Shown in pieces: positions 34,289-50,801 of a stretch of DNA of 64,000 bases. The DNA comes from an uncultured Hoeflea sp. GTDB taxonomy: Bacteria; Pseudomonadota; Alphaproteobacteria; Rhizobiales; Rhizobiaceae. Positions within the stretch are counted from its first letter, which is position 1; each line of letters starts with the position of its first letter. The translations under genes and the position numbers were made by a program. Under the pieces are notes generated by a model that was not told the origin of the DNA, ran no database searches, and was given only the letters and a program-made list of their open reading frames with translations. Location of the stretch: the NCBI RefSeq assembly GCF_947501405.1, contig NZ_CANMVK010000001.1, positions 1,240,001 through 1,304,000 on the forward strand, written 5' to 3'.

Positions 34289-34739
34289 ATGAGTCTCGGG
34301 GTTCTCGTGGTGATTGTCGCCTTTGGCGTGATTCTGGTGATCGGAGCCGTGCATTTTACCGGCGGATCGCGGCAGAAGGACACGCGCGATCATGGGGATG
34401 CAATCCTGGAATTCTCCCGCGCCTATCCGGGCGAGGCTATCCGCTCTGTGATCATGACCGCCGACGGCAAGGCCAGCTTCATGCGGCTGGCGAGCGGCAA
34501 GACCGGCTTCCTGCAGGCGATGGGCCACCATTTTGTGGCCCGGTTGATCGAGCCGCAGGCGGTTTCAGTGGAAGCTCTCGAGGATCAGTCCGGCCTCAGG
34601 GTCGGATTTCACGACACAACGCTGAAAGGCGGCGACTATCTGTTTGCCAGCACCGAGGATGCAGCCGAGGTATCGCTATGGCTGTGTGGAAGCCTGGCGC
34701 TTGCAAGCCCGAAACTCGAAGGGCCGGAGGAGGCCGGCC

Positions 34740-34747
<8 letters not shown>
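34289..34747 (+). CDS. Small single-pass membrane protein of unknown function
   Basis: Not recognised as a named family. The 152-residue product has one N-terminal membrane helix (LGVLVVIVAFGVILVIGAVHF) followed by a soluble domain of about 125 residues (AILEFSRAYPGEAIRSVIMT, MGHHFVARLIEPQAV, LRVGFHDTTLKGGDYLFAS). The ATG has a strong ribosome site (GTGGAGGA). Its last 8 bases overlap the start of the sterol-desaturase gene, so the two are translationally coupled and may act together at the inner membrane. Confidence 0.65.
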
Positions 34748-35702: not shown

Positions 35703-37133
35703 CTACTCGGCGGCGTCCCGGTGTGCGGGCTCGTCGAGCCAGGCTGCGAAATCGGTCAGTGCGCGCCGGGCCATCGCCTGTTTCTTGGCGCGACCCTTTT
35801 CCTTGCCGCGAAAACGGCCGCCGCCTTCCGGACGGACGATGGCGCCGGGTTCGAGCGGCGGAAACAATCCGAAATTCACATTCATCGGCTGGAATGAACG
35901 CTTGCCCGGCTCGTCGTCGCTTGAGAGATGGCCGCCGGTGATGTGATTGAGCAGAGCCCCGAAAGCGGTCGTTACTGGCGGCGGCGCCAGAACCTCGCCC
36001 AACCGTTCGGCAGCGGCGAAGCGGCCGGCAATCAATCCCATGGCCGCACTTTCGACATAGCCTTCGCAGCCGGTGATCTGGCCGGCGAAGCGCAACCCGG
36101 GGCGTGATCTGAGCGTCAGGGTGCCATCGAGCAATTGCGGTGAATTGAGGTAGGTGTTGCGGTGCAGGCCCCCCAGCCGGGCGAATTCGGCGTTCTCAAG
36201 GCCCGGGATCATCCGGAAGATCTCGCCCTGTGCGCCATATTTCAGTTTGGTCTGAAATCCGACCATGTTGTAGAGCGTGCCCAGAGCGTTGTCCTGGCGA
36301 AGCTGGACCACTGCATAGGCCTTGATGTCGGGCTGATGGGCATTGGTCAGCCCCATGGGCTTCATCGGGCCGTGGCGCAGGGTTTCGCGGCCGCGCTCGG
36401 CCATGATTTCGATAGGCAGGCAGCCATCGAAATAGGGCGTGCCCTCCCACTCCTTGAAGCCGGCGGTATCGCCGGCAATCAGCGCATCGACAAAGGCTTC
36501 GTACTGGGCCTTATCCATCGGGCAATTGATGTAATCGCGGCCGGTGCCGCCGGGGCCGACCTTGTCGTAGCGGGACTGGAACCAGCAGACCGACATGTCG
36601 ATGGAATCAGTGTGGATGATCGGCGCGATGGCATCGAAAAACGCCAATGCTTCGCGGCCGGTCTCGGCGCGGATTGCCTCGGCGAGATCGGGCGCTGTGA
36701 GCGGTCCGGTGGCGATGATTGTCTGATCCCAGTCCGCGGGCGGCAGGCCCGCGATTTCCTCGCGGGCGATTGTGATCAGCGGCTCGGCCTCGATCGCCGC
36801 GGTCACGGCGTTGGCAAAGCCTTCGCGATCGACCGCAAGTGCGCCGCCGGCGGGCACCTGGTTGGCGTCCGCGCAGCGCATGATCAGCGAACCGGCCATG
36901 CGCATTTCGGCATGGATGACACCGACAGCATTGTTCTCCGCATCATCGGAGCGGAACGAGTTGGAACAAACCAGCTCGGCAAGGCTGTCAGTCTTGTGGG
37001 CGTCGGTGCCGCGCACGGGGCGCATTTCATGCAGGATGACAGGAAGGCCGCGGCGGGCAATCTGCCAGGCGGCTTCTGAACCGGCGAGGCCGCCGCCGAT
37101 CACGTGAATGGGGGAGTGAGAATTTGTGCTCAT
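35703..37133 (-). CDS. trmFO: Folate/FAD-dependent tRNA (m5U54) methyltransferase
   Basis: Methylates U54 of the tRNA T-loop using methylenetetrahydrofolate and FADH2. The 476-residue product has the N-terminal FAD-binding motif [20 protein letters not shown], then [20 protein letters not shown] and [19 protein letters not shown] (with the conserved Cys), and the GidA-like C-terminus [17 protein letters not shown]-type segment (here [19 protein letters not shown]). The 25-residue tail is Arg/Lys/Ala-rich. Presence of trmFO instead of trmA is normal for rhizobia. Confidence 0.95.
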
Positions 37134-37276
37134 GGCGCGGGGTTTAACACGGCCAAGGGCGGCTCTCCAAGGCCAAACGGTCTGCAGTGCATCGCCAGCG
37201 GATGAGGCCTTGCGGCCGGTCAGTCCATCGGATGCCTGACAGTCTATCCGAGCTTAAAGGGATGTCGTATCGCGCA

Positions 37277-37305
37277 AACAAAAACGGCGTCCTTTCGGAC
37301 GCCGT
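37277..37305 (-). terminator. Rho-independent terminator of DUF1127 gene 1
   Basis: On the minus strand a perfect 9-bp stem (ACGGCGTCC with GGACGCCGT, 37284-37305) closes a 4-nt loop and is followed by TTTTGTTTG. It lies 24 bases after the stop codon of the small gene ending at 37329. Confidence 0.88.
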
Positions 37306-37328
37306 TGCATCATGCATCGTGGGCGCGC

Positions 37329-37472
37329 TTAACGGCGAAGGCCACGGGCCACGTTGTCGATGTCGAAACGGGTCAGGCCGATATCTTCAAGGGTCTCATT
37401 GGAGAGATTTGCGAGCTGCTGAGCGGTCTGGCGGGTCTTCATCCAGCTGCGGGCTGATTTGAGAATGTTCAT
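37329..37472 (-). CDS. Small DUF1127 protein 1
   Basis: A 47-residue basic protein, MNILKSARSWMKTRQTAQQL at the start and LEDIGLTRFDIDNVARGLRR at the end, the DUF1127 signature. The ATG at 37472 has a good ribosome site (GAGGAG). DUF1127 proteins are small alphaproteobacterial factors, some shown to bind RNA and affect sRNA stability or to be virulence- or stress-related. It has its own promoter-like element (37522-37550) and terminator, so it is a single-gene unit. It is the most divergent of the three paralogues here. Confidence 0.88.
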   Translation of the reverse strand: MNILKSARSWMKTRQTAQQLANLSNETLEDIGLTRFDIDNVARGLRR

Positions 37473-37521
37473 GGCGGTCTCCTCGGGTAAGTGCTTTGGG
37501 GCGTTCAATCTGATGCCCTTC

Positions 37522-37550
37522 ATATAGGCGATTGCCTGTGAATTGTGCAG
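37522..37550 (-). promoter_or_regulatory. Promoter-like element of DUF1127 gene 1
   Basis: Read on the minus strand: CTGCAC (37550-37545), 17 nt, CTATAT (37527-37522), embedded in GCTCTGCACAATTC. The same layout with identical spacing precedes DUF1127 genes 2 and 3. The -10-like box lies 50 bases before the ATG at 37472. The rest of the gap 37473-37833 holds no gene I can support. Confidence 0.6.
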
Positions 37551-37767
37551 AGCAATATTCGCAGGTCTGGTATGCAGTGCCCGAATGGCTGATAAACCGT
37601 TCATCAGTTTGCGTGGGGCGATGAAAAATGAGGCAATGATTGCCTTGATTGGCCGGATATCGCTGATCGCCGCTGTCGCAGATGGCGTGACCAGGGCGCA
37701 CCCGCTCAGATTACCTTTTTGGCCCCGGCGACGGGACATCTTGCGGTTGGCCGCAAGCCAGAATCAG

Positions 37768-37797
37768 AAACGGCGCCCCGTTGCCAGGGCGCCATTT
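37768..37797 (-). terminator. Probable terminator of DUF1127 gene 2
   Basis: GGCGCCC (37772-37778) pairs with GGGCGCC (37787-37793) around an 8-nt loop; flanking AAA/TTT extends it across one mismatch. On the minus strand the stem is followed by GTTTCTGATTC. It lies 37 bases after the stop at 37834. A second perfect hairpin (CTTGCGG, TTGG, CCGCAAG; 37740-37757) follows. Confidence 0.6.
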
Positions 37798-37833
37798 GGA
37801 TTGACCGGCCGAAGCCGGGCAAGCTGGTTTGTC

Positions 37834-37977
37834 TTAGTTGCCGGGACGGCGGGCGACGAAGGGAATGTCACCGCGCGAAATACCCAGATCGTTGAGTTCG
37901 CGCTCAGACATGCGCGACAGTTCGTTGACGGTGTTGCGGTATTCGCGCCAGTCTTTGTAAGCCTTACGGAAGTTCAT
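37834..37977 (-). CDS. Small DUF1127 protein 2
   Basis: A 47-residue basic protein (MNFRKAYKDWREYRNTVNEL ... ERELNDLGISRGDIPFVARR). The ATG at 37977 has AAGGA at 9-nt spacing; an ATG three codons upstream overlaps that site and is unlikely. It shares the block LSRMSERELNDLGISRGDIPF with DUF1127 protein 3, so these two are close paralogues. It has its own promoter-like element at 38036-38064 and probable terminator. Confidence 0.88.
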   Translation of the reverse strand: MNFRKAYKDWREYRNTVNELSRMSERELNDLGISRGDIPFVARRPGN

Positions 37978-38035
37978 GGTTTTCATCCTTTGCTGTGTGC
38001 GCCGGCCCATCCGGCGTCGTCTTCGATTGATCTGC

Positions 38036-38064
38036 ATATAGGTGGCGTCCAACGATTTGTGCAG
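38036..38064 (-). promoter_or_regulatory. Promoter-like element of DUF1127 gene 2
   Basis: Minus strand: CTGCAC (38064-38059), 17 nt, CTATAT (38041-38036), embedded in CGCACTGCACAAATCG. That 16-base flank is nearly identical to the element of gene 3 and resembles that of gene 1. The -10-like box lies 59 bases before the ATG at 37977. Confidence 0.65.
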
Positions 38065-38302
38065 TGCGAAAAAATGCATAGGGGGCATGCATTGGCTGCA
38101 ACGCCGGTTAACGCCGATTCACCCCTTGAGCCAAGCAAACGCCGCTCCTTATGGCCGCCCTGCAGTCATGAGGCCTGAGAGCGTTCAAGACAGTTTGAGG
38201 ATGCGGCATTCGGGGATTTCAATTTGCCCATCTGCCAGCCGCGAACAGCTGTGCCGGGCGGTGATGCCACGTCGTATTTGAAATTTGCGATTTTGGAGCC
38301 GC

Positions 38303-38346
38303 CCAAACAAATAACGCCCACCGGGGGAGGAGGATCCGGTGGGCGT
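38303..38346 (-). terminator. Terminator hairpin of the DUF1127-sRNA unit (hairpin C)
   Basis: The 11-bp perfect stem ACGCCCACCGG/CCGGTGGGCGT (38314-38346) is followed on the minus strand by TTATTTGTTTGGG. It doubles as the last anti-SD hairpin of the small RNA and should end the transcript started upstream of DUF1127 gene 3. Confidence 0.75.
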
Positions 38347-38430
38347 CATTTTGAACGACTGACGCTCGGGAGGAGGATGAACGTCAGTCACATCGAAGCG
38401 GCTATTGGGAGGAGGAGGAGGCCGCTCCGA
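38303..38430 (-). ncRNA. CuckOO/CcsR-like small RNA: three hairpins with anti-SD loops
   Basis: Downstream of DUF1127 gene 3 on the minus strand come three consecutive stem-loops, each exposing a CCTCCTCC-type loop complementary to Shine-Dalgarno sequences. Hairpin A: 38397-38426, 6-bp stem AGCGGC/GCCGCT (3 more pairs across a mismatch), loop CTCCTCCTCCTCCCAATA. Hairpin B: 38357-38389, 8-bp stem GACTGACG/CGTCAGTC, loop with ATCCTCCTCCCGAG. Hairpin C: 38314-38346, 11-bp stem, loop ATCCTCCTCCC, followed by TTATTTGTTT as a terminator. Stem sequences differ while loops are kept, which points to selected RNA structure. In Rhodobacter, CcsR/CuckOO RNAs with such loops follow a DUF1127 gene (ccaF1). 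Hairpin A begins 13 nt after the stop, so the RNA is probably processed from the DUF1127 mRNA. Confidence 0.85.
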
Positions 38431-38442
38431 ATTCCTAAACTC

Positions 38443-38583
38443 TTACAGGGCGCGTCGCGCAGCGAATGGGATATCGCTACGGACCATGCCAATGTCGCTC
38501 AACTCACGCTCGGAGAGCCTGTTCAGCTCGGAGCAGGTCTCGCGATATTTGCGCCAGCTGGCGTAGGAGCGGATCAATTTCAT
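38443..38583 (-). CDS. Small DUF1127 protein 3, linked to CuckOO-like sRNA
   Basis: A 46-residue basic protein (MKLIRSYASWRKYRETCSEL ... ERELSDIGMVRSDIPFAARR). The ATG at 38583 follows AAAAGGAGAG. It is closest to DUF1127 protein 2. Its stop codon lies 13 nt before the first of three anti-SD hairpins, the same order as Rhodobacter ccaF1 followed by CcsR RNAs. CcaF1 there is an RNA-binding protein that influences maturation and stability of the linked sRNAs; a like role is inferred here. Confidence 0.9.
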   Translation of the reverse strand: MKLIRSYASWRKYRETCSELNRLSERELSDIGMVRSDIPFAARRAL

Positions 38584-38647
38584 GGAAACTCTCCTTTTGT
38601 CCCGCTGTTGATTTTCGAAGCGCCACCGTGGCGTTCCGATGTTTGGA

Positions 38648-38676
38648 AGATAGGGTCTTTCAATCGATTTGTGCAG
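38648..38676 (-). promoter_or_regulatory. Promoter-like element of DUF1127 gene 3 and sRNA
   Basis: Minus strand: CTGCAC (38676-38671), 17 nt, CTATCT (38653-38648), embedded in TGCACTGCACAAATCGA. The -10-like box lies 65 bases before the ATG at 38583. Same layout as elements 1 and 2. The conserved part GCACTGCACAA could be a regulator site (a LysR-type protein such as VtlR/LsrB activates DUF1127 genes in Brucella and relatives) or the -35 region itself. Confidence 0.65.
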
Positions 38677-38842
38677 TGCAAAAAACTCATGGAAGCCATT
38701 CGGTATTTGCATGGCTAAATGATGATCCATGCCGAATTGCCTAACCAACAGGCAATAACCGCTGTAGGCTCCGGTTTACGCCTGATTTGCCGGCATTGCG
38801 GCAATTGGGAGTTGGTGTAACCTGACGCTGCGACATCGGCTG

Positions 38843-39973
38843 GTGAAAAGACGGGAACTTGGTGTGTTACGCAGATATCTGGCGCGGGAGATCGAGAACT
38901 GGACCAAGAACGGGCTGCTGGAGCCCGGGCAGGGTGCTGCGCTTTTGGCAGATCATGACCGGCGGCACTCCGGGTTTAGCCTGTCGGGCGTGCTCGGCGT
39001 GCTTGCCGCAGTGCTGTTTGGCGCGGCTGTCATCGCGCTGGTGGCCGCAAACTGGGAATTGATTGCCCGGCCGCTGCGGGTGGCGATGATCGTCGCAATG
39101 ATTGTCGTCGGGCTTGCCATTGCCGTTGTGGCGCGCAGGCGTGATTTTGGCTGGATTGCCGAAGCTGCTCTCGTCTTTACGCTGCTAAGCTATGGCGCGG
39201 GGATCGCGCTTGTGGGGCAGATGTATCACTTGAGTGGCGATGAGGCCGCTTTCATGCTGGCCTGGACAATCGGCGCGCTGGTTGTCGCATTGAGTTTTTC
39301 CTCGGCATTCGCCGCCATCGCCGCCGGATTGCTGGGGCTTGGTTACTTCTTCGCCGAAGCGGAGATCTGGGGCAGGGCGGTCGAGGCTTCCAATGCAGCG
39401 GCCTATCTCCATGTTCCTCTGGTCGCGATTGCCATTGCGGCTGCCGCCTTGCGGACGGAATCAAAAGTGGCAGGGCATCTTGCAGCGCTGCTGGTTGTCG
39501 GATGGGCCATGTGGTTGTTTTCCGAACGATTCGGAGGCGATCCGGGTTATCTGCTGGCTGTGTTGGGGGCTATCGCCTTTGCCGCGGGATCGCTGGTTCC
39601 GGCGGTCTACCAGCGCTTGGGCGGCCCGCATGGCGTTGCCTCGGTTTACGGAACCGTGATGCTGTTGGCCGGTCTGGGTGTGATTCAAGGTGATCTGAGT
39701 GGCGACAATCTGGTTCTTGAAATCGCCATGGCCGTGCTGATTTTAGGAGCCAGTGTCGCGGTGCTGGCAATTGCCGGCCGCGACAATCAGTCGATCCGGC
39801 GGTTTGCCTATGTCGCCTTTGCCGCGGAAACCATTTATGTGGTCAGCGAAACGCTGGGCTCGCTGATCGGCAGTTCGGGCTTCCTGTTCCTGGGCGGTCT
39901 GACGCTGGCGATCATCGCCTATCTGGTGATGCGGGTGGAAAGACGTTTCAACGCCAAGCGGGAGCAAACCTGA
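38843..39973 (+). CDS. DUF2157 multi-pass membrane protein
   Basis: A 376-residue protein starting at GTG 38843. A short cytoplasmic N-terminus (LARYLAREIENW-like helix, then NGLLEPGQGAALLADHD) is followed by about 10-11 hydrophobic helices, the DUF2157 layout. Function of the family is unknown. Its TGA overlaps the ATG of the next gene (TGATG at 39971-39975), and a DUF2157 gene followed by a GDYXXLXY-protein gene is a recurring bacterial pair, suggesting the two proteins work together in the membrane. Confidence 0.82.
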   Translation: MKRRELGVLRRYLAREIENWTKNGLLEPGQGAALLADHDRRHSGFSLSGVLGVLAAVLFGAAVIALVAANWELIARPLRVAMIVAMIVVGLAIAVVARRRDFGWIAEAALVFTLLSYGAGIALVGQMYHLSGDEAAFMLAWTIGALVVALSFSSAFAAIAAGLLGLGYFFAEAEIWGRAVEASNAAAYLHVPLVAIAIAAAALRTESKVAGHLAALLVVGWAMWLFSERFGGDPGYLLAVLGAIAFAAGSLVPAVYQRLGGPHGVASVYGTVMLLAGLGVIQGDLSGDNLVLEIAMAVLILGASVAVLAIAGRDNQSIRRFAYVAFAAETIYVVSETLGSLIGSSGFLFLGGLTLAIIAYLVMRVERRFNAKREQT

Positions 39974-50616: not shown

Positions 50617-50801
50617 GCGCGGCCAGCCATCGCCGCAAGGTCCGAAACGGGTCACAAAAATGGCGGCGTTGTCTAATCGATTTAGTTTTGGATCGGCCGC
50701 AAATCCTGAAAATTCAAGGACCTCAATGCGGTTTTCACATTGCCTTGCTGGCTTTGAACGCTGTATGAGCGGCCGAACACTATATCCGGGGGAAGACCGC
50801 C

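Follow-up and report, generated by a model that had tools for sequence, protein, structure and literature searches.

The window, the whole 64,000-nt stretch of DNA that we analysed, carries on its minus strand a cluster of three short DUF1127 genes, with an array of three hairpins directly 3' of the first of them. DUF1127-A (38443-38583, minus strand) encodes 46 amino acids and matches Pfam family PF06568 with 53 bits against a cut-off of 23.3; its stop codon is separated by 12 nt from the point where the predicted fold begins to pair. A terminator-like hairpin (37283-37306) lies 3' of the third gene, DUF1127-C. The cluster's neighbours, according to Pfam, are a DUF2157 gene at 38843, which is divergent, and, at 35703-37133, a GidA-family gene that is presumably TrmFO-like. 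The features are as follows.

38688-38711, minus strand: LsrB/VtlR-type box, TGCA-N6-GAAT-GGC-TT-CCA-TG, 43.8 bits with a matrix from other genera
38669-38681, minus strand: TTGCACTGCACAA at the -35 region; conserved across the genus alignment
38648-38653, minus strand: -10 element CTATCT (CTATAT in many members of the genus), from the genus alignment and spacing
38443-38583, minus strand: DUF1127-A gene, Pfam PF06568, 53 bits
38430-38434, minus strand: GAATT, RNase E-like site of the type RN/WUU (slash, cut) at the start of hairpin 1, from motif comparison across loci
38309-38435, minus strand: alpha-r14 (NfeR1-family) sRNA, from the RF02344 covariance model
38393-38430, minus strand: hairpin 1, 10-bp stem, loop with CCTCCTCCTCCTCCC, from predicted fold and covariation
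38357-38389, minus strand: hairpin 2, 11-bp stem, loop with CCTCCTCCC, from predicted fold and covariation
38314-38346, minus strand: hairpin 3, loop with CCTCCTCCC, then a T-rich tail; probable terminator, from fold and covariation
38036-38100, minus strand: promoter-like elements of DUF1127-B (TGCA-N6-GCAT, TCGCACTGCACAA and CTATAT), by pattern; matrix score -8.1
37834-37977, minus strand: DUF1127-B gene, 47 amino acids, downstream paralogue, from Pfam and the equivalent position in relatives
37520-37589, minus strand: promoter-like elements of DUF1127-C; matrix score 13.3, second-best of the window
37329-37472, minus strand: DUF1127-C gene, 47 amino acids, from Pfam

DUF1127-B and DUF1127-C are conserved neighbours and no peculiarity of the window. 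The original prediction, made from the sequence of the stretch, had counted these extra paralogues among the less usual features of the locus, but they are ordinary: at least two DUF1127 genes lie downstream in 20 of the 70 family loci, counted over the 1-1.5 kb retrieved, and the B-like and C-like genes form two groups in the tree, with modest support (86 and 85).

That prediction had also placed three stem-loops with anti-Shine-Dalgarno (anti-SD) loops directly 3' of the short DUF1127 gene, and the reading frame, the predicted fold and the motif search all bear this out. The exact sequence CCTCCTCCC occurs only three times in the 64-kb window, once per loop (38407-38415, 38368-38376 and 38325-38333); shuffled sequence contained it 0.72 times on average, and three or more times anywhere in the window in 3 of 100 shuffles. 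The hairpin region folds at -66 kcal/mol (z -7.6), and none of 200 shuffles reached an energy as low. The three stems are there, but not at the lengths first given for them (6, 8 and 11 bp); we predict 10, 11 and at least 14 bp. The T-rich tail reported after the third hairpin is present in the sequence, and hairpin 3 is absent from the listing of a simple terminator scan whose loop limit is 8.

Covariation of the stems in relatives had been named as a check, and its outcome is favorable. Of the 116 genomes that match RF02344 we used 69, which supplied 70 family loci: one per genome (the best-scoring one, except for G113, where it was the second) and two from G046. In stems 2 and 3, 21 of 23 pairs have changed on both sides with pairing kept, and 95.5% of cells are paired, compared with 77.4% in shuffled controls and at most 50.1% when slid. 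Because the full alignment is poor at stem 1, we counted that stem in 18 chosen window-like sequences, where 9 of 12 pairs changed on both sides with pairing kept and 89.3% were paired (73.5% shuffled, at most 50.7% slid). The sequences are related, so the shuffle counts are not probabilities. The loops are conserved in relatives: their core is nearly invariant while the stems change around it and remain paired.

By its covariance-model score and structure, the hairpin RNA is a member of the known sRNA family alpha-r14. Searching the window with cmscan, we found a match to RF02344 (ar14) of 103.6 bits, against a gathering threshold of 58.8, over model positions 1-123 of 123; the three hairpins each present an unpaired CCUCCUCCC. 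This is the published form of alpha-r14, which has three hairpins that each leave CCUCCUCCC unpaired and whose stems vary greatly (PMC10746234, PMC7143759). The triple loop, earlier thought to be less usual, is the norm, since the published description has three hairpins (PMC10746234). The RNA had been called CuckOO/CcsR-like, with a covariance-model search proposed to check it. An anti-SD hairpin array beside a DUF1127 gene is indeed what we found, but the identity with CcsR did not hold up: CcsR1 (RF02791) scores 30.7 bits, below its gathering threshold of 65.3, and for this reason we do not file the RNA under CcsR. Models for alpha-r7 and 6C gave weak overlapping matches below threshold.

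At an E-value of at most 0.001, RF02344 matches 116 of 121 genomes sampled in the family, 18 of 18 in the genus and 103 of 297 sampled in the order; above the cut-off the figures are 108 of 121, 17 of 18 and 55 of 297, the family and order surveys having used stricter filters than the genus survey. The genome of the window also contains a second alpha-r14-like RNA (L002, C2:781520-781665) that scores 43.1 bits, below the cut-off, and has a fold z of -5.7. It consists of two anti-SD hairpins followed by a terminator that lacks the motif, and the own-genome search gave no DUF1127 match nearby. Low-scoring matches resembling it occur in 16 of the 18 genus genomes. A different variant is seen in some stand-alone copies, which carry an extra short anti-SD hairpin 5' of the usual three (L115 and L124 in the window genus, and L032, L034, L035 and L044).

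We next consider how regularly gene and RNA occur together. A DUF1127 frame, in one case a remnant (L013), ends within 110 nt upstream on the same strand in 37 of the 70 family loci. The other 33 alpha-r14 loci have no DUF1127 within that distance, which shows that an adjacent protein gene is not required for the RNA; in two of these (L055 and L059) a DUF1127 gene lies 165-179 nt upstream, before another copy of the RNA. Within the genus, 17 of 18 genomes have the pair of DUF1127-A and alpha-r14, the exception (G129) being a draft that is 77% complete, and 18 of the 20 loci in the genus alignment are linked, the two extra copies (L115, L124) being unlinked. For 20 loci outside the family, chosen among the matches listed and drawn from 18 genomes, a same-strand DUF1127 gene lies upstream within 800 nt in 16 and within 60 nt in 10; four have none.

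Another check on this linkage starts from the protein alone. We searched with the DUF1127 alignment and took the best 80 of 363 relatives in named genomes. At least two TCCTCCC loops follow within 260 nt of the stop codon in 78 of these 80, and at least three in 71, while any TCCTCCC in the 260 nt before the start was found for a single one. Named Hoeflea supply 11 of the 12 closest relatives in this set, which makes Hoeflea the probable genus of the window. The coupling of DUF1127-A relatives with an RNA bearing anti-SD loops is real. Among the same best 80 of 363, 14 loci from Aurantimonas, Jiella, Fulvimarina and Mangrovicella have six anti-SD loops within 260 nt after the DUF1127 gene (L171, L183, L185, L188, L189, L192-L194, L199-L201, L205, L223 and L224). 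To judge from their sequence, these look like two alpha-r14 units in tandem.

The original prediction had noted one promoter-like element before the gene and no other obvious promoter before the hairpins. We scanned both strands of the window with a promoter matrix of 70 positions, built from 31 loci of other genera and none from the window genus. The DUF1127-A promoter ranks first (43.8 bits; training range 39.0-86.9; window mean -83, sd 16.3) and the DUF1127-C promoter second (13.3), while DUF1127-B, with its spacing of 59, scores -8.1, no better than a further site at 50743. The recognised promoter thus lies before the gene, and among the 12 matrix matches listed there is none inside DUF1127-A. 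A consensus sigma-70 scan returned no promoter anywhere in 37200-38900 and is thus blind also to the promoter that the matrix finds before DUF1127-A.

The DUF1127-A box lies 58 nt 5' of the -10 element CTATCT, and at DUF1127-B a CTATAT follows 59 nt after the start of the box. The TTGCACTGCACAA element is common to the DUF1127-C promoter (with one base different) and, with one further change, to that of DUF1127-B. Of 67 other loci, 31 have a related box, in some cases in front of a DUF1127 gene and in others immediately in front of a stand-alone RNA; in these 31 a -10 element of the form CTATNT or TTATNT lies 58 nt from the box in 22 and 57 nt in 2, and is unmatched in 7. In the window's own genome the box plus -10 pattern, allowing up to three mismatches, hits 11 places (reversed control, 0): DUF1127-A with no mismatch, the AbcR promoter with one and nine places with three, DUF1127-C among them; it misses DUF1127-B. 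The ranks of DUF1127-A and AbcR are not independent, because the pattern was written with both promoters in view. The AbcR in question (RF02345, 97.5 bits; L135, C1:208584-208771) adjoins an lsrB-like LysR gene of 298 amino acids, and its related box lies 59 nt before CATATC. We discarded an own-genome search for TTGCNCTGCACAA (2 exact hits, both in the DUF1127 cluster, and 35 with one mismatch) as circular, the pattern being post hoc.

The box resembles the binding site of a known regulator. In S. meliloti, lsrB also adjoins AbcR (PMC8844928), and LsrB binds TGCA-N6-GCAT about 60-72 nt before the start, activates the NfeR1 promoter and is needed for NfeR1 transcription (PMC10746234); a conserved promoter element upstream has been reported for members of the alpha-r14 family. 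VtlR is the name of the same regulator in other genera. In Agrobacterium it activates AbcR1 together with the small gene atu1667, and GCAT-N3-TG-N3-T has been proposed as its box (PMC7486931); in Brucella it activates AbcR2 and three DUF1127 genes (PMC12595884). The DUF1127-A box is one base off the S. meliloti LsrB site (GAAT for GCAT) and two off the VtlR box, and with 43.8 bits its promoter falls within the training range of the matrix, so that by sequence the locus has the promoter element of the family. From this likeness we infer that LsrB controls the DUF1127-A/alpha-r14 locus. Besides these base differences and the low score of DUF1127-B, it counts against such control that a regular expression recognises the box in 39 of the 80 named loci (best 80 of 363) and the box together with a -10 in 29.

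The site GAATT at 38430-38434, where hairpin 1 starts, fits RN/WUU, which we take to be the RNase E consensus; the window sequence at this candidate site is GGAATTCG. To see how the site is distributed, we divided the loci into 58 embedded ones, comprising 37 with DUF1127 and 21 with a leader longer than 40 nt (by the best matrix match), and 12 direct-start ones, whose best -10 lies within 25 nt of the RNA 5' end (within 3 nt in 11). An RNase E-like RN-WUU stands at the start of hairpin 1 in 47 of the 58 embedded loci and in 1 of the 12 direct-start loci. For matrix scores above 0 (53 and 12 loci) Fisher's p is about 4e-6, a value to be read with the facts that the motif was picked after looking, that 31 of the loci trained the matrix, and that the loci are related and not independent. 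From the -10 of DUF1127-A to the RNA is 212 nt. In Rhodobacter, RNase E and CcaF1 take part in releasing the CcsR RNAs from the ccaF1 mRNA (PMC8625941, PMC10253847). The promoter position and the AUU-type site suggest indirectly that the alpha-r14 RNA of the window is likewise likely to be made by processing of the DUF1127 mRNA.

We consider it probable that the locus is an LsrB-activated dicistron of DUF1127 and alpha-r14, cleaved to release a trans-acting anti-SD sRNA. An LsrB (VtlR)-type promoter would drive a single transcript holding the DUF1127-A message and the 3' alpha-r14 and ending at hairpin 3; the sRNA would be freed by an RNase E-type cut where hairpin 1 starts, between GGA and AUUCG; and the three CCUCCUCCC loops would pair with the ribosome-binding sites of several mRNAs and so repress them. 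In Sinorhizobium, NfeR1 represses mRNAs by pairing with ribosome-binding sites, and it uses its anti-SD seeds to regulate ntrB (PMC10746234). Maturation or turnover of alpha-r14 may be aided by the DUF1127 protein, as CcaF1 does for CcsR RNAs in Rhodobacter. Precedents elsewhere count against such a role: the partners of other DUF1127 proteins are PhoR or further proteins, and for Salmonella YjiS RNA binding was not observed (PMC12501420). The basis for this reading is present in the sequence, the predicted structure with its covariation, the family membership, the conserved linkage and the conserved promoter sequence; from it we infer not only LsrB control but also co-transcription, cleavage, target repression and a role of the protein on the RNA.

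It is unlikely that the sRNA has its own promoter inside DUF1127-A, gene and RNA being only neighbors. Some alpha-r14 RNAs, NfeR1 among them, do have their own start (PMC10746234), and in 12 of the 70 family loci a -10 lies within 25 nt of the model 5' end, 11 of them within 3 nt. In the window, however, the recognised promoter stands before the DUF1127 gene, none of the 12 listed matrix matches falls within it, and the AUU-type site is present that 11 of the 12 direct-start loci are missing. Slightly less likely again is a function in cis, in which the hairpins would stabilize or terminate the DUF1127 mRNA or pair with its AAGGAGAG ribosome site, and no trans-acting sRNA would exist. Hairpin 3 is a plausible terminator in the predicted fold, and the DUF1127-A ribosome site contains AGGAG, with which a loop CUCCU could pair. 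Yet the loop core is nearly invariant where the stems vary with pairing kept, relatives without a neighboring DUF1127 gene exist, and NfeR1 works in trans (PMC10746234).

The near-constant pairing of protein gene and loops among the best 80 of 363 relatives would also suit loops that imitate the tail of the 16S rRNA and titrate some protein, with DUF1127 itself as a candidate, instead of pairing with mRNAs, and CcaF1 is an RNA-binding DUF1127 protein (PMC10253847). We nonetheless hold titration, with its putative binding of a short DUF1127 protein to alpha-r14, to be very improbable, given that NfeR1 regulates ntrB through anti-SD seeds (PMC10746234). The attenuation by a uORF that is described for a DUF1127 gene of S. 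meliloti (PMC12218461) led us to consider also whether hairpin 3 attenuates DUF1127-B, an idea that we rejected.

If the cleaved sRNA does act in trans, its targets would carry matching ribosome sites. Searching the own genome for target patterns before ATG, we found four sites with GGGAGGAGG and 19 with GGAGGAGG-N3-9-ATG, not all of them at genes. Several precede frames of 2-34 codons only; the other genes, judged by eye, are a mixture (cytochrome c-like, TctC-type binding protein, ABC permease, acyl-CoA synthetase, AraC-type). Because the predicted sites are so mixed and several stand before such short frames, we claim no regulon. Within the window, a fatty acid hydroxylase-family gene (34740; Pfam-checked) is preceded by such a ribosome site, GGAGGAGG at 34726-34742, and is, by this pattern, a possible target of the loops.

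The family loci form a series that may record how free-standing copies arose: intact gene, remnant, leader, direct start, with a shared box, mostly 57-59-nt spacing and a similar start-site sequence. Among the 20 loci with at least two downstream DUF1127 genes, the upstream DUF1127 is intact in four (L001, L037, L048 and L051, the first in-frame ATG in the last two lying seven codons before the usual start). In L013 it is a remnant without an ATG, GTG or TTG start. A leader of 48-150 nt without DUF1127 takes its place in 14 (L009, L010, L012, L015, L017, L020, L021, L022, L024, L025, L027, L033, L040 and L069), and L046 is the sole direct start. Four of the leaders between promoter and alpha-r14 (L009, L010, L012 and L017) are 133-150 nt long, three of the four share GGTCAGCCGCCCGGA, and they may be structured. 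The -10 stands 2-3 nt from the RNA in 11 NfeR1-like loci. CATC or CAAC follows the -10 (7-nt stretch, offset 11) in 17 of 34 linked, 15 of 19 leader and 9 of 12 direct loci. At larger offsets the counts reach no more than 4 of 34, 2 of 19 and 1 of 12; the stretches overlap one another.

One reading of the series, to which we give an even chance, is that DUF1127 and the anti-SD array are an old LsrB module, that free-standing alpha-r14 (NfeR1) arose by decay of DUF1127 with loss of the RNase E site, and, as part of the same judgement, that the same promoter thereby came to start the RNA directly. Taken together with the DUF1127 linkage in other families of the order, the series is best explained by loss of DUF1127. 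The DUF1127 tree, which has 47 columns and leaves 61 of its 100 inner branches open, joins the A genes of the window genus to L048 and L051 with support 89. This protein tree would be compatible with gain of the DUF1127 gene as well, being too weak to exclude it or to separate gain from loss.

NfeR1 has been studied as a free-standing symbiosis sRNA, and DUF1127 proteins as small proteins without an agreed function. Among the papers that we searched, none names both NfeR1 and DUF1127. In the portions of the literature searched we likewise found neither a promoter type shared by DUF1127-linked and free-standing alpha-r14 nor a DUF1127 loss series. From its sequence, DUF1127-A with alpha-r14 looks like one LsrB-type transcription unit, and the nearest relatives of DUF1127-A (best 80 of 363) almost always carry the RNA. 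If this is true, an sRNA may have been lost or changed as well wherever such a DUF1127 gene was deleted, and phenotypes credited to the DUF1127 protein need to be re-read. The loss series, if true, would show in a concrete example how the tail of an mRNA turned into an independent sRNA gene.

Among known systems, the RNA of the window resembles alpha-r14/NfeR1 in its full-length model match, three hairpins with CCUCCUCCC in each loop, covarying variable stems and related box. It differs in that NfeR1 has its own promoter (PMC10746234), whereas in the window DUF1127-A, with the recognised promoter before it and 212 nt from -10 to RNA, lies between promoter and RNA, and in that the box is one base off the published LsrB site. 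Because of this promoter position we do not call the RNA an NfeR1 orthologue in arrangement. With the LsrB/VtlR regulon, which includes AbcR and short DUF1127 genes, the locus shares the related box before both DUF1127-A and AbcR; an anti-SD RNA as part of the DUF1127 transcript is not mentioned in the sections consulted of those reports (PMC7486931, PMC12595884).

Anti-SD loop RNAs beside short DUF1127 genes in an alphaproteobacterium also recall the cuckoo RNA/CIN1 system, which we set beside the window from its description in citing papers. Alpha-r14 has been discussed with the cuckoo family (Reinkensmeier and Giegerich 2015, as cited in PMC10253847 and PMC7143759), and SmelA075, with three hairpins bearing CCUCCUCCC loops in Rhizobiales, was described earlier than 2015 (PMC3927594). 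The CIN1 locus consists of short DUF1127 genes and CcsR-like RNAs according to PMC10253847, so the linkage of DUF1127 and RNA as such is already known. In CcaF1-CcsR1-4 of Rhodobacter sphaeroides, one transcript is matured with RNase E (PMC10253847, PMC8625941). CcsR1 has two hairpins per unit against three in the window, where the CcsR1 model fails; the promoter there is of RpoHI/RpoHII type, whereas the window has an LsrB-type sequence; and CcaF1 is 71 amino acids long against 46 for DUF1127-A. What the two loci have in common is a DUF1127 gene followed by anti-SD loop RNAs, and in the window this gene lies directly upstream on the same strand, with a 12-nt gap to hairpin 1.
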